Origin: a virus
DNA: 22,302 nt
Virus record (IMG/VR): IMGVR_UViG_3300025131_000481
Location: 1 to 22,302 of that record
Reading direction: 5' to 3' (one strand)
Shown here: positions 1 through 14,265 of the stretch, in pieces
Position numbering within the stretch: the stretch's first letter is position 1
How the letters are laid out: each line of letters opens with the position of its first letter
Program-made: the position numbers and the translations under genes
The notes under the pieces: generated by a model
Told to the model about the DNA's origin: nothing
Databases searched by the model: none
Seen by the model: only the letters and a program-made list of their open reading frames with translations

Positions 1-435
1 ACCAGAAGTACCAGAGGAGCCCGAAGTACCAGAAGAACCTGAAGAACCAGAAGTGCCCGAACTACCAGAAGTGCCCGAACTACCAGAAGATCCAGAGGTA
101 CCAGAGGAACCAGAAGTACCAGAGGAACCCGAAGTACCAGAAGATCCAGAAGTGCCCGAACTACCAGAAGTGCCCGAACTACCAGAAGTGCCCGAACTAC
201 CAGAAGATCCAGAGGTACCAGAAGATCCAGAGGTACCAGAAGATCCAGAGGTACCAGAAGATCCAGAGGTACCAGAAGATCCTGAAGAACCAGAAGTACC
301 AGAGGAACCAGAAGTACCAGAGGAACCAGAAGTACCAGAGGAACCAGAAGTACCAGAGGAACCAGAAGTACCAGAGGAACCAGAAGTACCAGAGGAACCA
401 GAAGTACCAGAAGAACCAGAGGTACCAGAAGGACC
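1..435 (-). repeat. Tandem 9/18-bp repeat encoding collagen-like Gly-X-Y triplets
   Basis: Read on the minus strand in the frame of the enclosing gene, every third codon from 435 down to 1 is glycine. There are 48 complete triplets and the repeat continues past the edge. The first triplet is GPS; the rest are GTS and GSS in mostly alternating order. At DNA level the unit is 9 bases, with an 18-base higher-order period that is nearly perfect between about 300 and 420 and more varied at 1-240. Such low-complexity Gly-X-Y tracts are known in phage fibres and are thought to form trimeric collagen-like stalks. This one lacks proline and charge apart from the first triplet. Confidence 0.92.
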
Positions 436-2246: not shown

Positions 2247-5200
2247 TCAAGGGTCTTCTCCACCCGGCGGCACCGAAGCCAAGGACTCCTCTACGCCGGT
2301 TGAGTTATATGTATAAACAGTATAAGCAATGTTGTTTATAGTGTCTTCGCTACCCGCTTGTATAGTGAAAGAAGTATTATCTGCACCCACCAAAATAGCA
2401 GTTTTTGTTTGTCCATTTACTTCTGCCTCTACCACAAAACCTTCAGGCGCAGTCTCAGAACCTGTATCAAGTTGAGCCGCTGCATTACCAAAACTAATGG
2501 TAGCTTCCGTTACATTCTGTTGTGTCCCTTCAGTGGTTTCGTCAAAACTAAACGTAGCCTTTTTTGTTATGGGCCGCGAGGCAGCGGTGCTTACAAAAGC
2601 TATTGATTCTACTTCAGGTGGATAAGTATCTAAATCTAAAGACGAGGGTCTTGCCGCCTTATTTACTACACTCATTTGGGTTTTAGATTGCTGGGTAGCA
2701 TTTAAATCTTGAGATTCATCAATGGCGTTAAACTTTGAACGATGATACATCATCCCTGTTACCAGATATTCCCCTGAAGATTGATCAGCAACTGAAAGAA
2801 CCCTATATTCCACATCTTTAATTTCATAAGCCTCCGCAGTATTCTCTAAAGTCCAAAGGGTCCCCACCTGAACGGAAGAAAACTCTCCGCTATCGGTTTC
2901 ATCTATAGTAATAAGGTCGTTTTGCGCTCCTCCCTCATCACCGCTAGCTCCTACCGCAGCGACAGTGAACTGTGTGATCTGAGGGGACGTAATTCCCCTA
3001 CTGATCTCGCTCGCCGAAAACCCTTCGCCCTCTCCTTTGGCGGCTTCCTTAGAAAATTCGGTTGCCGACTTCTTGGGTCTGGGAGTGATTAGGGTAATTT
3101 TTTGTCCCACTACGTCCTCATAAACACCCTGATCCAAAGTAACCTGAAAAGAAGAAGGATAAACCGCTACCAATCGTCCCCCATATCTTTTTGTACTTTT
3201 TAAAGTATCTTGTATTTTAATAACGTCCCCGGGCCTTAAAAAAGTAGCCTCTACTGCTGTAGTGAATTGCACCAAATCCGTTTCAAGTTGATTGGTAAAA
3301 AGAAACCACTTGCCTAAACGACTAGCTTGTCCTCGTGAGGTGGTCCCCAACCCCAAAATCTTCTTTTCTAAATATCCATATTTTTTCATTGCAATGGGGT
3401 CTTCCACATATTCTATCTTAGGCTTAAAGCTATCGTACTGATCATTATATCTTACTAAAACAGCCGTAAAACGAGTGGTCTTAGAGCTCCCGCTATATAC
3501 AAAGGCTCCATCCTTTACGTTAGAATTATTAAAAACTGCAATTGCATCTCTTAATTGATCATTAGCGACAAAGACAAAACCGCTATTCCAGTATATCATT
3601 CCCCGGAATACTGCGGCGAGGTCGTTCAACAAATTATAAGCCTCTTGTTCCTTATCAAGATAAATGTTGGTGGAAAAACGAGCCTCCAATACAGGGCGCG
3701 CCAAACCAGCCTCCACCACAGCCTTCCCTGACGCAACATTATGCCCCAATGAAAAACCCTGCATATACTCACTTACAAATGCGTCACGACTTTCTTCCTT
3801 TAGCGCGGCTTGTTTTTGTATACGATCAATAAGCCAACTGTGTGCGTCTAACGTTCCTAAGGCCGTCCGGTTAACACTGTCGCCTTTATAATTTAAATAG
3901 TCTCTTCTCAACCATTCAACCACCTTCCCGCCTTCATTTTTCACGAAGTTTTCAAATACCAATTGCGGAAAAATAGGCTTATGAATAGTAAAAGTAAGCA
4001 CATTAGTGTTTTTATTAAAACTAACATTTCCCACCCTTCTACGAAATCCCTGTCCTATATCAGTACCAGCGCTATCTTTGGCTTTAAAAAGTGCTACCGT
4101 ACTCCCTGTTGTAAAATATTTTCTTAGCTCTTCTTCCCCACGCTTGGTAGCGCTATCGTTAATTGTAATTACAGTCCCGTCAGGACCCACCGTAAAACCC
4201 AAAGGTTCTGTATAAGGGCTAAAACCAGTTTCTACTAACTCGTCACAGTATTTTCCAATAGAATAAAGGTTCCACTTATCAATAACATCCGCATTTAAGC
4301 CATACTTAGCAAGCCCATAGCGATTATTAATCACCATATCGTAAAACACCCACGCAGGATTATCACTCCATCTTTGTGTCCCAGCGAACTCTCCTGTCCA
4401 ATGACTGCTATATATCTTGTTAACAGGATCATAATTAGAAGGCAATTTAATCTTCAATAGCTTCATGTCATAAGTTCTGGTAGGAATAGAAGAAAAAGCT
4501 CGTGCATCTATCATATTGCAAATCATTGCAGAATGGGGATAAGAAAAAGGAGCATCTACCATTTCCGTGATACTTTTTACTCCTGACGCCCTCGTAATAC
4601 CCCCTGTCGCTACATCATTTGGATGAGGTTCCCTCATTGCGGCAATGATCGTAATCTGCCTATCTACTCCTGCAAGGGATGGCGGTAATTTAAGTTGATA
4701 AGACCGAAGGTACGGGCTGGTGGCAACCCCTGTTATAGGGATAACCAAATAAATAGCAGAACCCCCCTCCCCTATCAATCTCTCATCTCCTACATATGAA
4801 ATTTTCCCCAAAAAAAGCGCCGTATTTCCTTGGGGCTTCTTATCCGGCTTCTTGACATAACGAAAAGATAACTGCATGACCTCTAGGGTTAGTTCAATGT
4901 CGTTTACATTATCATTTGTTACAACATGATGAAGTTTTACTGGGTTGCTATTTATGGCTTTTTTAATACGCTCTATCATTACAGAGTTATTGCCGCTACT
5001 CCTGTCTGTAAAAGCAGATACTCTGTTAGACCCCTTTGAAATAAAATAATCGTTTTTATGATAAGCCGCTGACTCAAACCAAAAACTCGTAAAACCGTAA
5101 TTGAACCCAGTACCAAAAAACTGGGCAGTCCCTCCCGAATCAAAAGCGACAAGATCATCAAATTCATTACTATTTAACCCCGGTAACTGCACACCCACAT

Positions 5201-6107
5201 TAAAGGTCTGAGCAGAGACCCCAAAGGCTAGGCTGCGTTGATCCTTAAGCAGGATACGCGGAAGACGGGTAGCGCTAGAAGTAAAAGGTCCTTGGGTTAA
5301 AGTGCCTTTTTTTATTTCAGCGAAGGTTCTCATATAATTAATGGTGTCAGTATGAGTATTCTTGACCGGTACATTGTTAAAATATATTCCCTTGAATGCC
5401 CCTTCGTTATTGTCGGATGGTTTGTTACTTAAGGGAGCCACTTCTCCATTTTGGTCGCAAAGACCTTCTATAGGCCCCTCGCTTATCAAATCTATTGTTT
5501 TATATATGCTGACCGATTCTAACTTCTTGTTGGTGTCTCCGCTCACTTGCCCTGTCCACCCTCCATTTGGGAAATAGAACTGCTTTCCACCAACCGAGCG
5601 ATTCGATTTTTTGTACCACTCCTCCACCAATTGGGGGGAATCTGCACCCCCCCAAAAACCATCTTTACCGTATCCTCGAGTTCTATTAGAAACTGTAATT
5701 GCCTCTTCAGCATCTAATTTATACTGTGCATGCTCTTTAGCCGTACCTTCACGAACTACAAAGCCCCATGGCAGTAATGCCCCCCCATTGGGAGAAGTCA
5801 CATTCGACGTAGCATAACTCTGATAATAGCGCTCTTGAGAAGCGTCTTTGTCTAGTTCTGCTACATTACCTCCCTGCCCTTTCGTCGCCTTACCATCCCC
5901 CCCGGGAGGTTCTTCAACCGGATCTGCGGCGGCTACCTGTAAAGGAATGTTGGTTACTCCGCGAGGAAGACCGGGATCTGCTGTGCCTGCTCCTTGATCA
6001 TAAATATTGGCATCATCAGAAACCGTGGAACCGCCCCCTCCTTCTCCGGCCATCGACAAACGAAAACCAAAGAGAAGGTTCCGGAAATATTTGTTAATCC
6101 AATCCAT
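2247..6107 (-). CDS. J: Lambda gpJ-like tail hub / host specificity protein
   Basis: This is a central hub protein of a siphovirus tail tip, 1286 residues long (lambda gpJ is about 1130). Blocks that match gpJ in order are IDLISEGPIEGL (about 205-216), LPSNYDP followed by NPAWVFYDM, NNRYGL and DKWNLYSIGKYCDELV (about 555-622), LNDLAAVFRGMIYWNSG, TTSRGQASRLGKW (about 921), RPGDVIKIQD (about 956), and LWTLENTAEAYEIKDVEYRV (about 1090-1110). Two parts have no counterpart in gpJ: residues 1-200, which include a GEGGGG tract, and about 630-805 inside the hub. After about 1125 only some 150 residues of low-complexity beta sequence follow, ending PPGGEDP. The fibronectin and fibre part of gpJ is absent and seems to be carried by the next gene. 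The ATG at 6107 has only a weak AAAGAA upstream and follows the preceding stop by 11 bases. Confidence 0.93.
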   Translation of the reverse strand: MDWINKYFRNLLFGFRLSMAGEGGGGSTVSDDANIYDQGAGTADPGLPRGVTNIPLQVAAADPVEEPPGGDGKATKGQGGNVAELDKDASQERYYQSYATSNVTSPNGGALLPWGFVVREGTAKEHAQYKLDAEEAITVSNRTRGYGKDGFWGGADSPQLVEEWYKKSNRSVGGKQFYFPNGGWTGQVSGDTNKKLESVSIYKTIDLISEGPIEGLCDQNGEVAPLSNKPSDNNEGAFKGIYFNNVPVKNTHTDTINYMRTFAEIKKGTLTQGPFTSSATRLPRILLKDQRSLAFGVSAQTFNVGVQLPGLNSNEFDDLVAFDSGGTAQFFGTGFNYGFTSFWFESAAYHKNDYFISKGSNRVSAFTDRSSGNNSVMIERIKKAINSNPVKLHHVVTNDNVNDIELTLEVMQLSFRYVKKPDKKPQGNTALFLGKISYVGDERLIGEGGSAIYLVIPITGVATSPYLRSYQLKLPPSLAGVDRQITIIAAMREPHPNDVATGGITRASGVKSITEMVDAPFSYPHSAMICNMIDARAFSSIPTRTYDMKLLKIKLPSNYDPVNKIYSSHWTGEFAGTQRWSDNPAWVFYDMVINNRYGLAKYGLNADVIDKWNLYSIGKYCDELVETGFSPYTEPLGFTVGPDGTVITINDSATKRGEEELRKYFTTGSTVALFKAKDSAGTDIGQGFRRRVGNVSFNKNTNVLTFTIHKPIFPQLVFENFVKNEGGKVVEWLRRDYLNYKGDSVNRTALGTLDAHSWLIDRIQKQAALKEESRDAFVSEYMQGFSLGHNVASGKAVVEAGLARPVLEARFSTNIYLDKEQEAYNLLNDLAAVFRGMIYWNSGFVFVANDQLRDAIAVFNNSNVKDGAFVYSGSSKTTRFTAVLVRYNDQYDSFKPKIEYVEDPIAMKKYGYLEKKILGLGTTSRGQASRLGKWFLFTNQLETDLVQFTTAVEATFLRPGDVIKIQDTLKSTKRYGGRLVAVYPSSFQVTLDQGVYEDVVGQKITLITPRPKKSATEFSKEAAKGEGEGFSASEISRGITSPQITQFTVAAVGASGDEGGAQNDLITIDETDSGEFSSVQVGTLWTLENTAEAYEIKDVEYRVLSVADQSSGEYLVTGMMYHRSKFNAIDESQDLNATQQSKTQMSVVNKAARPSSLDLDTYPPEVESIAFVSTAASRPITKKATFSFDETTEGTQQNVTEATISFGNAAAQLDTGSETAPEGFVVEAEVNGQTKTAILVGADNTSFTIQAGSEDTINNIAYTVYTYNSTGVEESLASVPPGGEDP

Positions 6108-6118
6108 ATTCTTTAATT

Positions 6119-6781
6119 CTAGTCGCGATATATAACAGCCCCTGCTCCTTCAGCGCCAGCGGATCGATCTGGATAACCCTGCGCCCCCGGGCGGCCTAGT
6201 TGGCTGGTTTGAACTGATTTTCTATCCTCCCATACATTCTTCTCTACCGAACTCAAACTAACACTTACAACATTTCCCCCTACGCTCATTCTCCCGTAAC
6301 CCACGGGTACGACCTGCCCTTGCTGCGCTGTATTTTCAGCGCTAGAAAACACAAAGGAGGTAGTATTTGTTGCGTCCGGATCATCGCTTTTCATTGTTTT
6401 GTTTATCAAATAACTAATACCAAAAGATATTGCAGCGCTAATAACAGCCGTAAGAACAAACTGTACAATTACAGCGGTGACCCCCTGCAGTCCAATAGCC
6501 GAAACTATAGCGCCTGCCATCATGGCGGCTGCACCAGCCAAAATAGGAACAATTTCTATCTTCTTGTTTTTTACATCTCTATATAAAAAATCGTCCGCCT
6601 TAACTAAGTCTCCGTCAAGAAAAATAGCCAACTTATCTTTTTTATTTTTATTTAAATAATGACGAAAAATACCTGTATTACACTCCAAAGCATTAAAAAG
6701 CTCCATAAAAGTGGATACCTTTAGTTTCCATGTGGAACCAATCTTTTTTCCTAATTTTCCGCCTATAAATATATCTGTCAT
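6119..6781 (-). CDS. I: Lambda gpI-like tail tip assembly protein, second copy
   Basis: This 220-residue protein belongs to the gpI family, which is needed to build the lambda tail tip. Residues 1-78 are a small basic ubiquitin/beta-grasp-like domain (GGKLGKKIGSTWKLKVST) ending IEIVPILAGAA. Residues about 80-126 are strongly hydrophobic with two possible membrane or fusion-like helices. Residues 141-184 carry the family signature SFVFSSAENTAQQGQVVPVG, YGRMSVGG and SSVEKNVW. The tail (190-220) is Gly/Ala/Arg-rich and ends VIYRD. It is clearly paralogous to the neighbouring 206-residue protein: the signature block aligns almost without gaps, down to VEK.VW. The ATG lies 8 bases after the previous stop in an AT-rich leader with no Shine-Dalgarno site, so coupling is likely. 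Whether both copies enter the particle or one acts only in assembly cannot be read here. Confidence 0.9.
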   Translation of the reverse strand: MTDIFIGGKLGKKIGSTWKLKVSTFMELFNALECNTGIFRHYLNKNKKDKLAIFLDGDLVKADDFLYRDVKNKKIEIVPILAGAAAMMAGAIVSAIGLQGVTAVIVQFVLTAVISAAISFGISYLINKTMKSDDPDATNTTSFVFSSAENTAQQGQVVPVGYGRMSVGGNVVSVSLSSVEKNVWEDRKSVQTSQLGRPGAQGYPDRSAGAEGAGAVIYRD

Positions 6782-6789
6782 TTAAATTT

Positions 6790-7410
6790 TTATCTAAAAA
6801 CCATAGTGTTAAATGCCTTAGATTTATCCCATACCGATTTTTCAACACTGCTATTAGATACGGAGATTGTCATACTACCTACTCTCATCCGCCCATAAGC
6901 CACAGGCACAACACCCCCTTGGTTAGTTGTATTCTCGGCCCCTCCAAAAAGAAAACTACTAGTTCTCTCCGATTGGGGGTCCTTGGGATCTTCTGCCATA
7001 TGCGATATCAAGCTACTGATCCCAAGAACAACTAAAGCAACTAAAGCCACAACAGCTACAGCCACCACCATATATCCTATAGCCAGCGCCGTCGCAAAGC
7101 CAATCGGGGTGGCCGCCACGATCGCCGCGCCTATCCAAACCGCAGCAGAAACCGCCCCCCCCGCCAAAATAGGAATCAAAACTAGACTTTTTTTAATTTT
7201 TTTTAAAAAACAAGCATCAGGTGCCACAGGCACACCGTCTACTATCACCGCATACCTTTTTGAAACCCCTAAAGCTTTCGCGAACGCGCTTCCAACATTT
7301 GCCCGTATGGCCCTAATTGCCTCCCCTACGGTCCCTACATGGAGTTCCCACTTTTTACCTAGCGATTTGCCTACACGACCTTCTAGAGAAACCTCAACCA
7401 TACTATACAT
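6790..7410 (-). CDS. I: Lambda gpI-like tail tip assembly protein, first copy
   Basis: This is a 206-residue gpI-family protein. Residues 1-77 form the N-terminal domain (VEVSLEGRVGKSLGKKWELH). Residues about 76-136 are an Ala/Val/Ile-rich hydrophobic stretch (LVLIPILAGGAVSAAVWIGA, then VVAVAVVALVALVVLGIS), long enough for two helices. The conserved C-terminal block FLFGGAENTTNQGGVVPVAY, GRMRVGS occupies 153-179 and ends SSVEKSVW. It shares all blocks with the following 220-residue protein, so the two arose by tandem duplication, but it lacks the Gly-rich tail of that copy. Two ATG codons, at 7410 and 7401, could start it; neither has a clear Shine-Dalgarno site, and the upstream stop is 9 bases away. 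Confidence 0.91.
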   Translation of the reverse strand: MYSMVEVSLEGRVGKSLGKKWELHVGTVGEAIRAIRANVGSAFAKALGVSKRYAVIVDGVPVAPDACFLKKIKKSLVLIPILAGGAVSAAVWIGAAIVAATPIGFATALAIGYMVVAVAVVALVALVVLGISSLISHMAEDPKDPQSERTSSFLFGGAENTTNQGGVVPVAYGRMRVGSMTISVSNSSVEKSVWDKSKAFNTMVFR

Positions 7411-7419
7411 TATACACTA

Positions 7420-7800
7420 TTAAATTAAAAAATAAATGGTTTCTTGTGTCTCAGGGTCATATAAAGCAAACTTTGCTTCGCTAGGAGAAAACACCAAAAA
7501 CGGTATTAAGGAATTATCTGAAAGCTCAATATCGCTCAGGCTGGGGCCACAGGTCGACTGAGGGTGAGAATGAAAGCAAAAATCTATTTTTTCTCTGCGC
7601 GAAACCTCTATATATTTTAAAGGATCAATGTAAAAAGTGTCTTGCTGGTTTAGAGAAGAGTTTTTTATGAAAAATAAACTATTATTGCAAATTAAACCAC
7701 ATATTTCAATAGAATGTAACGACGCAAGGCGCTTAATATAACTTAAAAAGTCACATCTAATTTGTGTAGCGGTATGCCTCAATGGATGGGAAGCCTCCAA
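7420..7800 (-). CDS. K: JAMM-domain tail assembly protein, gpK N-terminal half only
   Basis: This is a compact JAMM (Mov34/JAB) zinc isopeptidase-type domain. Counting from TTG at 7800 (126 residues), the metal site reads H77-S-H79-P, then seven residues to S87 and two more to D90; E32 in the segment SIEICGLI fits the upstream catalytic glutamate. Lambda gpK joins a JAMM domain to an NlpC/P60 domain. Here the frame stops at the end of the JAMM domain and no NlpC/P60 motif follows. The frame contains no ATG or GTG codon. TTG at 7800 has no Shine-Dalgarno site; TTG at 7782 follows GGAGG by 11 bases and gives 120 residues, which I prefer. Either start overlaps the end of the gpL-like gene (44 or 26 bases), as in the tightly packed lambda order L-K. 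Its likely role is processing or assembly of the tail tip; the substrate is unknown. Confidence 0.86.
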   Translation of the reverse strand: MEASHPLRHTATQIRCDFLSYIKRLASLHSIEICGLICNNSLFFIKNSSLNQQDTFYIDPLKYIEVSRREKIDFCFHSHPQSTCGPSLSDIELSDNSLIPFLVFSPSEAKFALYDPETQETIYFLI

Positions 7801-9049
7801 ACGGAAGCTCTGAATAACTTTTGAACCTTAACGTACACGCTGGAACCGTTTTGGAACATTGATCAGCCCCCCAATATTCTTTTTTATATCGAGGATCCTG
7901 CGGGACTATATGTTGTTTTATGCACACAAAAAATGCATCAGGCTCATCCGCTGAAGAATCTGCGCTTTTGACATGTTTAACCTTATCTATAGTGCTAAAG
8001 GTTCCAGATTTAATCCTTACGACATCTCCTTTTACATATCCTACGGTACCAGTTGAAGAGTTGGCCAACGTGCTTTCCCCATGATTTAAACGCAATCTGC
8101 CAGTTAAACTTGTGGCGTTTTTTTCAGCCAATGTGGTCACCTCGAAGGTACCAGTAGAAAAAATTATAGTCCTATTAGGGGTAATTTCATTAGAAATAGC
8201 CGCTACCGTTAAAGAGGAAGCGCCGTCAGAGGCCAGAGCCCCTGTAGTAATTTCCACTTGTTCTCTTATGTAATCATAGCTCCACCTCATAGAAGTAATA
8301 CCATAACCACTGGAAGCTTGATCAAACCTTTTGTTATTAGCGTCGGCAACAGGTATACCTAGGTTTGAATCAAGCAGACTAGTATTTGATTTTCTTCTAA
8401 AAAAGTCACGCGAAACAATAGCGGCGCCCGTAGCACTGTTAACCAAGCCCGAAACAGGACCATCCATATCTGAGCGACACCCGTACCTACACCCTACCCC
8501 TCGATATTTCCACGGACAATAATTAGATACCATCAACCGCGCAGGCAACGTGTGACTCTCCATCTCCAAAGGAGAAATTAACTCAAACTCTACAAAAAAC
8601 TTACTCTCCGAAACCTTTCTATTAAATATAAAAATATCCTCGTCAAAACGCGCACTAGAATCAGACACTGCAAAAGGGTTGGTTTCTTCAGGAAAATTCA
8701 CCTCGTCAATATATTTGAGAAAAATTCTGATTCGTTTAAATTTTTGCCCCACCATATCATCCCTCCTTTTAATAAGGTCAGAAATCACACCGTTCGGATT
8801 GGCTACCAATAACCTAGGGCGCGCCAACGTCCCGTCTCCTTTTGACTCAAAACCATCCGCTTCAATAGGGAGGGAAAAATAAGTATGGGCAAGATTGGTA
8901 TCGGGATCAGTTAATACGATGTCTTTGTTAACGATTTTGCCCGCGTGAAACCGTTTAACACCGCCTTCTTCTATAGACACCTCATAGAGCTCTATAATAG
9001 TGTCTGGGAGAAGATCCGCTAAAGATGCGTTATGTGCTTGTGTTGACAT
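7757..9049 (-). CDS. L: Lambda gpL-like iron-sulphur tail tip protein with large insertion
   Basis: Residues 1-175 match the N-terminal part of gpL/DUF2163-type tail tip proteins (TIIELYEVSI, DEDIFIFNRKVSESKFFVEF). The cluster-binding part follows: C178 in NYCPWKYRGVGC with C187 eight residues on, then C398 in WGADQCSKTVPAC with C405 six residues on, ending LPFGGFPSIEAY. The spacings C-x8-C and C-x6-C are those of the lambda gpL cysteines known to hold a [4Fe-4S] cluster. In gpL the two pairs are about two dozen residues apart; here they are 210 apart. The insert (about 192-395) holds a small repetitive beta module (SSLTVAAISNEITPNRTIIF) and a segment just before C398 (GDVVRIKS, then FFVCIKQHIVP) that resembles small carbohydrate-binding folds. 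Extra cysteines are C191 and C376. The ATG is 2 bases after the previous stop, with no good Shine-Dalgarno site. Confidence 0.92.
   Translation of the reverse strand: MSTQAHNASLADLLPDTIIELYEVSIEEGGVKRFHAGKIVNKDIVLTDPDTNLAHTYFSLPIEADGFESKGDGTLARPRLLVANPNGVISDLIKRRDDMVGQKFKRIRIFLKYIDEVNFPEETNPFAVSDSSARFDEDIFIFNRKVSESKFFVEFELISPLEMESHTLPARLMVSNYCPWKYRGVGCRYGCRSDMDGPVSGLVNSATGAAIVSRDFFRRKSNTSLLDSNLGIPVADANNKRFDQASSGYGITSMRWSYDYIREQVEITTGALASDGASSLTVAAISNEITPNRTIIFSTGTFEVTTLAEKNATSLTGRLRLNHGESTLANSSTGTVGYVKGDVVRIKSGTFSTIDKVKHVKSADSSADEPDAFFVCIKQHIVPQDPRYKKEYWGADQCSKTVPACTLRFKSYSELPFGGFPSIEAYRYTN
7780..7798 (-). promoter_or_regulatory. Shine-Dalgarno GGAGG and TTG start inside the upstream gene
   Basis: On the minus strand GGAGG occupies 7798-7794 and is followed after 11 bases by TTG at 7782-7780, in frame with the JAMM protein. 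The whole site lies within the last codons of the gpL-like gene (those for ELPFGGFPSIE). Because the JAMM frame has no ATG or GTG anywhere, this is the best supported initiation signal for it. Confidence 0.5.
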
Positions 9050-9051
9050 TT

Positions 9052-12000
9052 TTATTCGAAAAGGATTTGTCCTGCAAACCCATTGTTATCGGTGAAAGCA
9101 TTAACAGTGTCTACGGATAGAGGGTCCCCTGCATCCGCTCCTTTCACTGTAAGATATTTATTATATAAAAAACCTAAGACGTTTCGATTTTCACTGCTCG
9201 CTAAAAGCCTATTGTAAATCACCAGATGAGCTAACCCCCCTTTATACCCTACTCCAAACGGAGCTCTGTATTCTCCACCTAGGGCGCTCGCCCCTATTAA
9301 AACATTATCTGAACTCAAAAAATCAAAAGCTTCTTTATTTGTTTTAAACTGTTGCCCTCCTACAGGCACTCCATTACATCGCGCTAAAAGAGATATTAAA
9401 CCATTTTTTCGTTGGGCAGACAAATTATAAACCCACGCCGAACGGGGCGTCCGTATCACCTCAGCGCTTTCTTCTGACCCTTCGGCTGCCATATTTAAAT
9501 CCTGAAACGTTAAATAGTTATTAGTGTTTTCGCCACTCACCCCAGCATTCTCCATAACACTAGGCTCGCAACGATGATAATAAGCAGAATCAAAACCAGT
9601 GCCATCTCCCTTGGGCTTCACAAATGGTGCGGACCACCTCATCCACCCTACTTGAAATACATCATCATAAACCGCCTTACACACAAAAGTTAAAGTTTTG
9701 CCGGTAGCCTCGCTTGCCGTTGGTGCGACCGAAAGTACCACGTTGGGAGCAGAAATACTAGATACTTTAGTGTTTACGGGAATATCAGCACCTATAACCA
9801 TTTCGCCAACCTTAATGTCTGTCACGTTGGCGGGCGTAATGGTAGTGTTGCCAGAGGTGTAAGTGCATGTTTTATTATTTGTTTTCCCCATGCTGGTTTC
9901 TATTTGACTATTACTCAGCCAACAAGAGTCAAAACTAACAGGCTCACCACCCTCGTGGTACGGCTCTCCAAAGGTCTTTTCTGGGAACACCGGTCTCCCA
10001 CCAATGTAATTTCCTTGAGCATCCCACTTGTCCGGATATATCACATAAAAAATATCAAACCCATTCATGAAGGGCGAAAGTCGGTTGGAACCATATTCGC
10101 TATCGTTCACTTGTCTTTTTCTGAGAGTACCAAAAAGAGCGGTATCCGACGAAGCGGCATCAGCGGCTAACTGGAATTCCCCTCCTCCTGCAAAATAAAC
10201 AACATCATTTGCCAATAGCTTAGAAGGAAGGCTTGCCACTGCAATTCCCACACCAGCCGCTGAGTAAAGACCCGGTTGGTAAGTTTTTCCACTACTATTG
10301 ATCTGTATGGCTCCCGTGTTACTCTGGTCTACCGTAGCATTTAGCAGTTTGAAATACTGCGCGCCCGGACGAGTCGGAGTTGTGGCGTGATAACCATAAT
10401 ACGCTGGATCAAAATAAATGAAAGGAGCGTCATTAAAATATCTTTTATAAAGCGTTGTTCCTTTAAAATTTGTATAGTCAGCCGTACGGTAAGTGGGACG
10501 ATTATTGTTAGCGTTGGTGGTTTGTTCCATATAAATACCGTCATCACCTGAATTATTAGTTGAAGCCCATCTAACTATAGATTGACCGTTTGTAGCCGCC
10601 GTATTGGTGCTTTCATTCGTATAAGCGCTATAAACATTTTGAGAGCTGTCAAAATTAGCCACCAAACCGGAAATATCTGAAGGGGTTTTCTTTGAGGGGG
10701 TTATTTCAATCAATACAGACCGAAAATTGTTTTTAGTATAATTTGTATTCCCCGAAATCACCCTAAGTGCGTTGCCCGCACTCCCTCCAAGCTGCCCTAC
10801 CGTATTATCTTGAACCGTAAAAGGATCAATAGCTCCTATATCATCCATATTTTGGCCCTTGATCCCCCCTTCTCCATAGCCTCCCCCCGCACCCCCTTCA
10901 GAATGACGAGTTTGCTGGCTCGGAGACAGGTAGCCCGGACCGGAGCCATAAAACCCTCCGCGCAATTGAATATTCAATGGCTTCAAGTCTGCGTCGGGAG
11001 AAAGTTGCCGCCCCCCCTCAGACACAATATAGCCCTGCCCACCTCCGCCGGGACCCCCATAATGCGTACCCAAAGTGGATACCAGCATTTCGTCTTGGGT
11101 TGCTCTACCGCCTGCCGCGACAAGTTTTAATTTTCCGTCTTTTTTAACAAGCTTTGTATTACTATCTAGAATTTTCGGGTTAGCCGCCCACATTTTAGCG
11201 AACAGCTCAATTGAGGTGCCAGATTGTCCACCTACAAAATCCACAATCTTATAACTTGTGGAGTTCTTAAGAGCAAAGATTTTTTCAACCAAAAAGCGAT
11301 CACCGCCCCCTCCTCCTCCACCACCACCCAACACCTTTGCTGTGTAATCTTTCCTAATCTTAAATTCACCAATCGCCGTATCAGAAATCTTAATGGCGTG
11401 CCCCCCCGGTGAGCCTACAGTAGAATTTTCCGTCTTAGAGAACTCAAAAGTTAATGTGTTGGTTTGGATTGAAGGGGCATTTTTTACTAGAGTATATCCT
11501 CCGTCCCCACCCGCTCCCCCTTTACCGGCTACCACAGAATTATATTGCATCACTAAAACTGTAGGAGTCTCCTTGACAGGTTTTTGAAGATTAGAATGAC
11601 CCCCCGCTGTAGCATCCGCTGGATTCACAACCCCTGTTAATAATTGATAGCCCGTATCTATAGATGGTTTTGTTGAATCTGTAGATCCCACTACAAAATT
11701 AGGACGCAAAATATATTGGATACCTGTAAAATTATCCCCATAAACTCCAGTCTCAGCCACATTAAGCCATGCCTCCGGACTTGTCTCATAAGGTATTCCG
11801 GGAACATTATCCAACCCATCTGTTTGCGTAACCACACCCCTATTCACCAATTCTTGAATAAAAAGGCCACTTAAGTTAAGATTGGTAGAACCATGGGGTA
11901 AAAAAATCCTCATAGCAGGCTTACTCCCTGCCGGTATCCTAATCTTGGGCAGATGACTCGCGCTGGTAATAGGCTGAGCAAAAGAGTTTAAACCCAAACC

Positions 12001-14265
12001 GGTGTAAACCTTGTCACTCACCACCTGATTAAGATCATCTACCCCGCTAGCATAAACATACATAGACCCTGTTGTGAAGGCCACCTCTTCACCGGCTGCA
12101 TTTTGATATTCTGATCTTATTCGATAATAATAATTTGAATCCGGTTGAAGTTGTGTGTGTAAGACCGAACGGGGTTGATGATAACCCGTAATAATAGGAT
12201 CCGTAAAAGGGCTTCCGATAGCATCTTGAGCCAAACTAGGAGGAAATGCTATACCTGTATATAAAAGAGTATTGAAATTTCCAGCGTTCCCGGCTGTGCT
12301 CCCATCATAAGAAGATACCTCCTTAAACCCAATTCTTCCCGGGTCATCACTATCGGTATAAAAATTGGTTAACCCCGTAAATCCGTCAGCAGGCCCTTGG
12401 CTTGCCTCTAAATTGTATCGCGTTAAATAGTAGCCGCTGGTGGGGTGTTCCCACTGTAAATAATGTAAAGGACGCCCAGACACATCATAATATCCCGTTT
12501 TAACTAAAAACTTGCTTGGAAACATAGGGGTCTCCGAAAGGCGCCCTGCGTAAGGGCTAGAACCCCATCCACTAATATACCCGGTGATACCTAATGCTAT
12601 TGTTCCACTAGGGTCAACTTCGTTATCCACTTCCGCCACCGTACTTAAAGTTAAATAACCATTATATCCTGTAATTTGTGGGCTAGCAGGATCAATTGAG
12701 GAGGCATTCGAATTGTCCCCAAACGCATTAAAATAAAAAGGAACAAAATGTGTTACCCCGGGAGGGGTAATGATAGGGTTATCCACTGATCCTGAGGGAA
12801 ATTCAAAAACCGAATACTCATTCTGAGAGGTGTCTAAAGTAGTCTTAGTGGTAATATTGCCACTGTTAGTTAAATAAAAACCAGTTCTTAGGGTAAATCC
12901 CGTGGGAACATAAACGGGGATGCCTGTATTCTCTACAAACTCCGTGTTCTGTGCCCTAGCCCTAACGCTAGTAGACCCTCCCCAGTCTGCGTGTTGAGGA
13001 ATTGTGGTTACAGGCTTATTAACAATAGTTACTAATGTTCTAAAATCCCTAGTAAGATTTAAATAATCTATTGGAAACTCTAAAAAATCTACCCTAATAT
13101 CATTATTATCTTTGAATTTTAAAGTATGTTGCCAACTCGAGGAAATAAAAACCTTCCTCTTATCATAAGGGGCGGGTGGGGTGAAGTTGAAAGGGGCGCT
13201 TCCTTGATGGTGCTCTAAAAAATGAACCATTGCCTTGGTTTCCCTGTCTGTGCGTCCCCGAAAATCTAAAGAAAATTTTAATAAATTTTTATTTAACCCC
13301 GCTCCGAAGCGAATTTTAAATTGATTTTGCAAATCTTGGCTATAATAAACTGGCGACATCTCTAACGAAATCTGGTCATTAGCACCAAAGTAAAAAGTGT
13401 CCTTTGTCCAAAGTGTCGCGTCCCCAGAAGGGGAATTGTAAATAGTGCCCTTTAGTCCGGTTACCTTACCATCGCTAGAGGTGTAATCCACATTTTTTTC
13501 ACCTGTAAAATAATACCACCCACTTTGCTTAGGTAAAAGGCATGATTCCGAGGCTGTTTCCTTCATGAAAAAAGCGGCATCGTGTTGATAATACTGCTCG
13601 CCATCATCATACTTTTCTCGAGTTCCTTCATAAGGAATATGTAACTGCTGCCAATCAGTCAACGACACCGTTTCGTTGAAAAAAGTTGTACTCACATTGT
13701 TAACCTCAGGACCCGCTGTACTGTGGTTAATATTTTCAATAAAAAATTCTCCACTTAAGTTATAAGGGGCAAAAGGAGCCCAGTTAATCCCACTATATCC
13801 CCCTTTTGGCTTGGTTCCCTTATTAAAAGAATCTTCTAGAAGATGAATGATGGCGCGGCTTTCAGCATCTGTTCTTTTATTGAAAGAAAGGTTAAATTCT
13901 GCACGTAAAGCGTTCTCGCTTCTGTTCAATACGGAATAATACCCATCTCCCATCGAGGTAGAGTAATTAAAAGCTTTATAAGAAACCGTAGCTCCGTAAG
14001 AAGGCTCAAAGAAAAATTTTTGAGTCCAATTAGTAGGGTTATTTTCTTCTGTAGTCGCAGCAGGCGTATTGCTAATTGTGGATGCGGTGCCCTCTTTACC
14101 GGAATAATAGTAATGACCCGACTGAGCTTGAGTGCACGGATACAACGAGTCATCGGCTGGATCTGTATAGCCGCTAAAGTAAACAATATCGTTCAGCTTA
14201 TAATTGTTCCCAACCTCAAATGGAAAAATATCAGTAATATTGGTGACGCCCGAGTTAATTATCAT
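9052..14265 (-). CDS. Tandem gpM-like tail tip protein fused to a giant adhesin-like region
   Basis: This 1737-residue protein sits where lambda has the small gpM. Two copies of one unit open it: a small domain (NYKLNDIVYFSG, ending NPTNWTQ) plus a gpM-like domain at about 86-210 (KRTDAESRAIIHLLED), then the same pair at about 220-405 (GRTDRETKAMVHFLEHH, APFNFTPPAPYD). Residues 410-900 are beta-rich, with a fibronectin III-like stretch at about 598-735 (LQWEHPTSGYYLTRYNLEAS, NYYYRIRSEYQNAAGEE). A glycine-rich region covers 913-1138, with KGGAGGDGG, a run of nine glycines, GGPGGGGQG and GGAGGGYGEGG. Residues 1195-1710 look like a LamG/concanavalin-type lectin fold (GLVANFDSSQN to LAHLVIYNRLLASSE, FLYNKYLTVKG), with a small beta module inserted at about 1466-1531. 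I infer a tail tip ring component carrying a lateral adhesin. The start is well supported by GGGAGGG seven bases upstream. The function of the fused body is not proven. Confidence 0.86.
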   Translation of the reverse strand: MIINSGVTNITDIFPFEVGNNYKLNDIVYFSGYTDPADDSLYPCTQAQSGHYYYSGKEGTASTISNTPAATTEENNPTNWTQKFFFEPSYGATVSYKAFNYSTSMGDGYYSVLNRSENALRAEFNLSFNKRTDAESRAIIHLLEDSFNKGTKPKGGYSGINWAPFAPYNLSGEFFIENINHSTAGPEVNNVSTTFFNETVSLTDWQQLHIPYEGTREKYDDGEQYYQHDAAFFMKETASESCLLPKQSGWYYFTGEKNVDYTSSDGKVTGLKGTIYNSPSGDATLWTKDTFYFGANDQISLEMSPVYYSQDLQNQFKIRFGAGLNKNLLKFSLDFRGRTDRETKAMVHFLEHHQGSAPFNFTPPAPYDKRKVFISSSWQHTLKFKDNNDIRVDFLEFPIDYLNLTRDFRTLVTIVNKPVTTIPQHADWGGSTSVRARAQNTEFVENTGIPVYVPTGFTLRTGFYLTNSGNITTKTTLDTSQNEYSVFEFPSGSVDNPIITPPGVTHFVPFYFNAFGDNSNASSIDPASPQITGYNGYLTLSTVAEVDNEVDPSGTIALGITGYISGWGSSPYAGRLSETPMFPSKFLVKTGYYDVSGRPLHYLQWEHPTSGYYLTRYNLEASQGPADGFTGLTNFYTDSDDPGRIGFKEVSSYDGSTAGNAGNFNTLLYTGIAFPPSLAQDAIGSPFTDPIITGYHQPRSVLHTQLQPDSNYYYRIRSEYQNAAGEEVAFTTGSMYVYASGVDDLNQVVSDKVYTGLGLNSFAQPITSASHLPKIRIPAGSKPAMRIFLPHGSTNLNLSGLFIQELVNRGVVTQTDGLDNVPGIPYETSPEAWLNVAETGVYGDNFTGIQYILRPNFVVGSTDSTKPSIDTGYQLLTGVVNPADATAGGHSNLQKPVKETPTVLVMQYNSVVAGKGGAGGDGGYTLVKNAPSIQTNTLTFEFSKTENSTVGSPGGHAIKISDTAIGEFKIRKDYTAKVLGGGGGGGGGDRFLVEKIFALKNSTSYKIVDFVGGQSGTSIELFAKMWAANPKILDSNTKLVKKDGKLKLVAAGGRATQDEMLVSTLGTHYGGPGGGGQGYIVSEGGRQLSPDADLKPLNIQLRGGFYGSGPGYLSPSQQTRHSEGGAGGGYGEGGIKGQNMDDIGAIDPFTVQDNTVGQLGGSAGNALRVISGNTNYTKNNFRSVLIEITPSKKTPSDISGLVANFDSSQNVYSAYTNESTNTAATNGQSIVRWASTNNSGDDGIYMEQTTNANNNRPTYRTADYTNFKGTTLYKRYFNDAPFIYFDPAYYGYHATTPTRPGAQYFKLLNATVDQSNTGAIQINSSGKTYQPGLYSAAGVGIAVASLPSKLLANDVVYFAGGGEFQLAADAASSDTALFGTLRKRQVNDSEYGSNRLSPFMNGFDIFYVIYPDKWDAQGNYIGGRPVFPEKTFGEPYHEGGEPVSFDSCWLSNSQIETSMGKTNNKTCTYTSGNTTITPANVTDIKVGEMVIGADIPVNTKVSSISAPNVVLSVAPTASEATGKTLTFVCKAVYDDVFQVGWMRWSAPFVKPKGDGTGFDSAYYHRCEPSVMENAGVSGENTNNYLTFQDLNMAAEGSEESAEVIRTPRSAWVYNLSAQRKNGLISLLARCNGVPVGGQQFKTNKEAFDFLSSDNVLIGASALGGEYRAPFGVGYKGGLAHLVIYNRLLASSENRNVLGFLYNKYLTVKGADAGDPLSVDTVNAFTDNNGFAGQILFE

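Follow-up and report, generated by a model that had tools for sequence, protein, structure and literature searches.

The hub of the lambda tail tip is known to be a trimer. For lambda gpL, an iron-sulfur cluster with Cys173, Cys182, Cys205 and Cys212 as ligands has been characterized and modeled (PMC10721106). In the RcGTA hub, four cysteines likewise coordinate an iron-sulfur cluster, and the ion-binding domain (residues 143-167 and 250-263) encloses an oligosaccharide-binding domain at residues 168-249 (PMC7296036). A comparable arrangement is described for the R4C hub, where the cluster segments 142-161 and 244-266 flank an oligosaccharide-binding domain (162-243), for which the authors suggest an origin by horizontal transfer and an aid to adhesion (PMC10276861). 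In addition, the C-terminal region of gpL has been called hypervariable (PMC13243795). Within the portions of the literature searched, we found no description of inserts in the cluster loop of gpL that are graded in size or nested; PMC5175280, PMC10684548 and PMC11945409 do not alter this picture. From the RcGTA and R4C hubs, a domain between the cysteine pairs is already known and structurally tolerated, and since solved hubs do likewise, such an insert is ordinary in principle.

Here, we describe a gpL homolog encoded in a viral stretch of 22,302 nucleotides (IMG/VR record IMGVR_UViG_3300025131_000481), referred to as the window. Its arrangement is larger and more structured than an earlier interpretation made from the letters alone (the sequence-only reading) had described.

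Materials and Methods

Homologs of gpL were gathered from viral contigs with two degenerate DNA patterns (CPWKYRG and LPFGGFP) and by similarity to insert-bearing members, the latter restricted to the best 80 of 120; all recruited sets are samples. Among the matches listed, 327 loci gave 317 ORFs with an N-terminal gpL domain and, after truncated and near-duplicate sequences had been dropped, 175 representatives. A profile of the beta-module was built from nine stretches seen in the inserts of the window protein and its relatives.

Results

A gpL homolog in a lambda-like gene order

The tail-tip genes of the window are the following:

9052-14265, minus strand: protein of 1737 aa that contains gpM-like domains plus an additional beta-module copy (Phage_min_tail, E 6.7e-13; module, i-E 4.2e-11)
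7757-9049, minus strand: gpL-like tail hub protein, 430 aa (Phage_tail_L PF05100, phrog_18, lambda gpL 8iyk_L)
8534-9049, minus strand: N-terminal hub domain of this protein, residues 1-172, equivalent to lambda HDI according to the fold matches of the model
7420-7800, minus strand: 126-aa protein at the gpK position, in which JAB is the sole domain and the start codon is uncertain (phrog_30, E 6.4e-13; Prok-JAB, E 0.0053)
6119-7410, minus strand: two tandem gpI-like genes, 6790-7410 and 6119-6781 (both phrog_32, E 1.8e-29 and 7.2e-33)
2247-6107, minus strand: gpJ-like central fiber/hub protein (phrog_31, E 2.5e-122; Phage-tail_3, E 1e-18)

The product of ORF 7757-9049 matches Phage_tail_L in Pfam (PF05100; E 2.4e-35, 122.2 bits, above the curated cut-off of 25), phrog_18 in PHROGs (E 9.3e-53) and, among the sequences of solved structures, lambda gpL chain 8iyk_L (phmmer, E 1.1e-17). 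Residues 9-170 of its AlphaFold2 model align on lambda gpL (Z 16.7, rmsd 3.4, 149 aligned residues) and also on the T1, Sf11, T5, JBD30, Chi and GTA hubs. Together with the profile alignment and the gene order, these matches bear out the assignment as a gpL homolog made in the sequence-only reading. According to Pfam and PHROGs, the lambda order M, L, K, I, J is kept in the window, with a JAB-only protein at the K position and a doubled I gene. An NlpC/P60 match in the gene at the gpK position was returned by neither database. At the place of the two gpI-like genes, two ORFs are likewise present in L002, a relative on another contig.

As the virus record may be a fragment, one could argue that the long gene is an assembly artifact or has decayed. 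The frame is open, the architecture recurs in L002 (57% identity) and many further relatives share it; we therefore rejected this explanation, whose probability is practically negligible.

Two gpM-like domains lie in tandem in the 9052-14265 protein (residues about 50-190 and 280-400; 25% identity, BLASTP E 5e-09; Pfam E 0.021 and 2e-11), and a ring of the usual six-fold kind could then be built from only three chains. Window positions 1-435 hold an 18-bp tandem repeat (24.2 copies) that codes for a GTSGSS-like repeat, the end of a tail-fiber-like ORF cut by the window end.

Four conserved cysteines flank a long loop

The C-terminal half of the gpL gene was divided as follows, the inner limits being assigned from alignments:

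8489-8518, minus strand: first cysteine pair, C178 (codon 8516-8518) and C187 (codon 8489-8491); C at both columns in 52/52 rows of alignment A5
8363-8476, minus strand: variable pre-linker, residues 192-229, differing in length among relatives
8324-8362, minus strand: remnant of the native gpL loop, residues 230-242, LGIPVADANNKRF (profile alignment to lambda GPAVADEYDQPTSD)
8258-8323, minus strand: CBM5/12-like module, part 1, about residues 243-264, continuous with part 2 in L118, L324, L321 and L021
8039-8257, minus strand: nested small beta-barrel module, about residues 265-337 (module HMM, i-E 1.2e-23; pLDDT about 95)
7862-8038, minus strand: CBM5/12-like module, part 2, residues 338-396 with Y338, G341, C376, P386 and W393 (Y, G, P and W near-invariant in 61 inserts)
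7835-7858, minus strand: second cysteine pair, C398 (codon 7856-7858) and C405 (codon 7835-7837); C at both columns in 52/52 rows of A5

Six cysteines occur in the ORF (178, 187, 191, 376, 398 and 405, with gaps of 8, 3, 184, 21 and 6 residues). C178-PWKYRGVG-C187 aligns with C-TWTYRGDE-C of lambda, and DQC398-SKTVPA-C405 with DKC-SKCLSG-C (8iyk_L). These alignments confirmed what had been proposed from the letters, namely that the C-x8-C and C-x6-C spacings are kept while the pairs stand 210 residues apart, compared to 22 in lambda gpL. Placing six cysteines at random in 430 positions reproduced C-x8-C followed by C-x6-C in 195 of 200,000 draws, a figure that is moot because of the homology to lambda gpL.

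The existence of two extra cysteines would allow that the insert altered the ligand set, with C191 or C376 replacing one of the four. C191 is a cysteine in 1 of the 52 aligned sequences, the window protein itself, and was rejected as a ligand for this reason. C376 is conserved (33 of the 35 sequences having that column); it is part of the inserted module and travels with it, and it was rejected because inserts such as those of L160, L165 and L213 have no cysteine near that place and their proteins retain all four canonical ones. With C at the four canonical columns in 52/52 sequences, an altered ligand set is very improbable.

Instead of an iron-sulfur cluster, the cysteine quartet could hold zinc or some other metal, or contain no metal at all. 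In this regard, metal binding is described as no more than putative for a different cysteine site, located in the upper baseplate protein of JBD30 (PMC11445458). We consider this quite improbable for the window protein: ligand spacing and flanks are those of lambda gpL with its characterized and modeled cluster (PMC10721106), and the C-x6-C..R...GFP end is common to the window protein and the R4C hub. An iron-sulfur cluster is the reading we prefer. The R4C hub (vBDshSR4C_014) has C147, C157, C244 and C251 with 86 residues between the pairs, and the gpL profile aligns weakly with its C-terminal motif (hhalign probability 10%, E 0.0031). Searches with phmmer and hmmsearch gave no sequence match between the RcGTA or R4C hubs and the window protein. 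Phage_BR0599 is not among the Pfam matches of the window protein at E 1, and the relative P0003 has a sub-threshold match to this family (E 0.1).

The AlphaFold2 model of the whole protein (52 sequences) has a mean pLDDT of 80.5 and a pTM of 0.55, with pLDDT below 50 at residues 167-182 and 184-186, the span around C178. The insert predicted alone reached a pLDDT of 85.5 and a pTM of 0.82. The R4C hub 8gtc_P matches model residues 10-337 with Z 9.4 over 198 aligned residues, and the rmsd of 18.8 means that the domains are placed differently or that the match across both is loose.

The insert is composed of nested parts

The sequence-only reading had placed an insert at about residues 192-395 (8476-7865) and had named two parts, a repetitive beta module around residues 270-340 and a segment before C398 with the look of a carbohydrate-binding fold. 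The coordinates hold and both parts are present. The insert is, however, no single block: residues 230-242 (LGIPVADANNKRF) align with the native loop of lambda, which thus persists, embedded in the insert. This assignment is based on the profile alignment and not on a fuzzy regex for the native-loop motif, which matched 62/71 inserts but also 15/96 short loops and was given no weight. The beta-module was recovered at about residues 265-337, but in one copy, repetition being found in relatives only. The carbohydrate-binding-like segment is not one piece, since it comprises about residues 243-264 plus 338-396 around the nested beta-module, and its label stays under the Pfam cut-off.

The nesting becomes visible by comparison. 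The beta-module site is empty in L324, L325, L321, L021 and L118 (3-4 of 75 columns filled), and GDYDK(T) is almost contiguous with Y.xGD in L118, L324, L321 and L021. In the window protein, L002, L259, L260 and L263, a unit of ~70 residues separates the two. Judged from these alignments, the insert is a native-loop remnant and a CBM5/12-like module before C398, with one beta-module inside that module.

The CBM5/12-like module

Among the matches listed, a Trp five or six residues before C3 is found in 67 of 71 inserts longer than 45 residues. Four columns are conserved to at least 90% in 61 aligned inserts (Y151, G154, P199 and W206 in the numbering of the window insert, equal to Y338, G341, P386 and W393 of the protein). 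We take this spaced Y..G...P...W signature to resemble CBM5/12 modules (PF02839). A strict CBM regex matched 45/71 inserts. In Pfam, CBM_5_12 matched 6/61 inserts at E 0.1 (best E 3.6e-5, 24.1 bits, cut-off 26.2), and no Pfam CBM matched the window insert. As every match is under the curated cut-off and the window insert has none, true CBM5/12 membership was rejected and the module is named CBM5/12-like only. With regard to solved CBM5/12 folds, Foldseek gave only weak rows, to Vibrio chitin or chito-oligosaccharide deacetylases (4nz1, 4nz4, 9jen; E 0.16-0.28), enzymes that carry CBM5/12-type modules. A compact natural example is L330, in which the native loop start is directly followed by the module; this stretch alone matches CBM_5_12 at E 0.024, under the cut-off, and the whole protein matches Phage_tail_L. 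L330 is the one relative obtained from two scans of genome contigs, the first of which gave none, and its contig is labeled as a Neomarinimicrobiota MAG, a label that is not a host assignment.

Copies, distribution and fold of the beta-module

Among the matches listed, the number of beta-module copies rises with insert length from 0 to 5 (module HMM). There are no copies in 30 inserts of up to 186 residues, one in inserts of 194-223 residues (window included), mostly two at 262-300, mostly three at 340-375, and four or five in most longer inserts. Exceptions are L005, L143 and L284 with none, L278 with one, and L293 and L282 with two. Over all loci, duplicates included, we counted at least 179 copies, 134 in gpL and 45 elsewhere; among the matches listed, 125 of the gpL-borne copies lie between C2 and C3 and nine are outside or not placed. 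A related module is also found in the gene upstream of gpL: in gpL-holding loci, 34/35 non-gpL ORFs with the module are located directly upstream (redundant loci counted, among the matches listed), the window's own carrier being the 9052-14265 protein (i-E 4.2e-11).

The best fold match of the module is a VP1 capsid domain (Z 8.7, rmsd 2.5, 72 aligned residues). Chi tail-tip and JBD30 baseplate chains, a Mystique tail-tube domain, LKA1 gp49 and F1-ATPase barrels follow at Z of about 6 to 7, and translation factors are also among the matches (Z 6 to 8.7). These similarities may reflect merely a common small-barrel arrangement, and since F1-ATPase and translation factors are matched as well, sugar binding is not implied by the fold.

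In this context, the inserts could be structural instead of adhesive, bracing the tip cone or docking side fibers or the upstream gpM-like protein, and sugar binding would have been over-read from a small beta fold. The related module directly upstream, through which the two proteins could meet, and the generic fold matches, including a capsid domain and a tail-tube decoration, would suit such a role. Against it stand the CBM5/12-like signature in most inserts, a PA14 domain in L143 and a copy number that varies between close relatives, unlike a fixed brace. Moreover, in the parts of their papers available, the RcGTA and R4C authors assign oligosaccharide-binding domains to the equivalent slot (PMC7296036; PMC10276861). 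We regard a purely structural role as rather unlikely and keep adhesive decoration as the preferred reading.

Loop length and cysteine conservation among relatives

All four cysteines were detected by script (C3/C4 within 80 residues of GGF) in 163/175 representatives, and the C2-C3 loops of these 163 are between 7 and 712 residues long (both among the matches listed). The fairest set is the one recruited by LPFGGFP, as this pattern contains no cysteine: among the matches listed, 76/80 non-redundant representatives have all four (the doubtful L140 counted), and 25 of these 76 have loops of more than 45 residues. The CPWKYRG set (52/52, among the matches listed) and the similarity set (43/43, best 80 of 120) are complete, but C1 is part of the search pattern in the former and of one of two patterns in the latter, and the frequency of long loops in the similarity set is uninformative because its members were recruited by insert-bearing queries.

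Twelve representatives failed the script. In eight of them (L135, L147, L188, L158, L177, L204, L227 and L140), C-x6-C is located further upstream, with a matching context in all except L140. In L169, four suitable cysteines are present but escaped the script (read by eye), and L200, L205 and L237 have no C3 at the usual place and two adjacent cysteines at C4. The closest company of the latter three on the tree includes L207, where the four cysteines are as usual. In L135, L147, L158, L177, L188, L204 and L227, C3 lies at least 80 residues before GGF, and a second insertion site is present between C4 and the terminal GGF.

The cysteine pairs are thus co-conserved across loop lengths (76/80 and 163/175, among the matches listed), so that the refuting condition named in the sequence-only reading, pairs that are not co-conserved, did not apply; since both pairs are almost never lost, there is little variation for showing their mutual dependence. 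Its further claim, that whole domains can be inserted without loss of the ligands, agrees with pairs kept across varied loops and with the R4C and RcGTA inserts, which are compatible with a cryo-EM cluster.

The C2-C3 loop is a recurrent insertion site. The sequence-only reading, which is supported in part, had overlooked how widespread, nested and variable in copy number the insertion is, and that solved hubs provide precedents. Apart from the modules described above, the loop of L143 holds PA14 (27.8 bits, above the cut-off of 24) and that of L156 an endosialidase-type barrel (25.8 bits, under the cut-off of 35). In L289 (L289:6547-8682), a GTATQ...GSGTSW...GREFTFTGG-like unit is repeated several times before the native-loop motif (by eye). 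Within the phage collection, no record covers 80% of the window protein (P0001), L021, L141 or L160 in one place. Among the matches listed, L021 is covered most widely by Halomonas phage H4907, whose annotated minor tail protein L has 702 bases and therefore no comparable insert.

In a quick-method tree of the N-terminal domain (165 rows), several long branches leave details unsure and gain is not separable from loss. On it, the loop state, short or inserted, requires five changes, of which well-supported branches impose at least three for the short group, and presence of the beta-module requires five as well. The window protein groups with L002 inside a clade of varying copy number.

Discussion

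The best explanation of our data is probably a gpL-type hub with a metal-pinned, most likely adhesive and modular cluster loop. The gene encodes the hub of a lambda-like tail tip, in which a C-terminal metal-binding domain would be pinned by C178, C187, C398 and C405, most likely around a [4Fe-4S] cluster like those of RcGTA, R4C and lambda. Between the pairs, the surface loop would serve as an evolvable mount, into which a CBM5/12-like module is inserted just before the third cysteine, with the small beta-barrel module nested inside it and relatives carrying none to five copies. Cluster, trimer, outer position and a tolerated insert are known from solved relatives, and by analogy three copies per tip would set the added domains around the exterior of the cone, near the cell surface. 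In this position, weak and host-tuned contacts of these domains with surface glycans would probably precede engagement of the central fiber. The most likely role of the insert is hence outward adhesive decoration, and in the window protein the cluster would pin the base of the projecting loop.

A more far-reaching reading, which we hold only tentatively, is that gpL uses its iron-sulfur loop as an expandable mount dedicated to adhesins: the cluster would staple the base, so that gains and losses of modules within modules (CBM-like ones first, followed by none to five beta-modules, or else PA14 or helical inserts) spare the hub. If true, the retention of an oxygen-sensitive cluster on the exterior of the virion would be explained, since the loop would owe its insertability to this fastening, and copy number would set reach or avidity toward the host. 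Ligand pairs that persist while the loop grows from a few residues to hundreds offer a natural test of insertion-site stapling. The family also points to a variable component of the tail tip, distinct from the central fiber, by which environmental phages may adjust the recognition of their hosts.

While domains between the pairs have been described before, the nested, countable stack with its size range was not encountered in the portions of the literature searched. Regarding the modules, the likeness to CBM5/12 (PF02839) lies in the spaced signature, and the difference in the lack of a match above the cut-off. The endosialidase beta barrel PF12195 is also a small barrel, with a sub-threshold match directly in the loop of L156, and the LKA1 gp49 barrel (4ru4) reaches Z 6.8 to the window insert; Z stays under 8 and the window's own module has no sequence match. 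Among cultured phages, Synechococcus phage S-CBS4 gp36 is a gpL homolog with 260 residues between the pairs. Its insert differs, being helical-looking at both ends (by eye), without the Trp before C3 and without a Pfam match. R4C and RcGTA gp13 share the extra domain between two halves of the iron-sulfur segment, at the same place and with the same likely role. They differ by a single insert of about 80 residues, for which the authors report no nesting or copy-number variation in the parts of the papers available, and by a sequence too distant for phmmer or hmmsearch. With lambda gpL (8iyk chain L) and T1 gp36 (9l9p chain J), the window protein has the fold of the hub domain in common, and with lambda also C-x8-C, C-x6-C and the gene order M-L-K-I-J. 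In contrast to the 22 residues between the pairs of lambda, the window protein carries 210, including two added modules.
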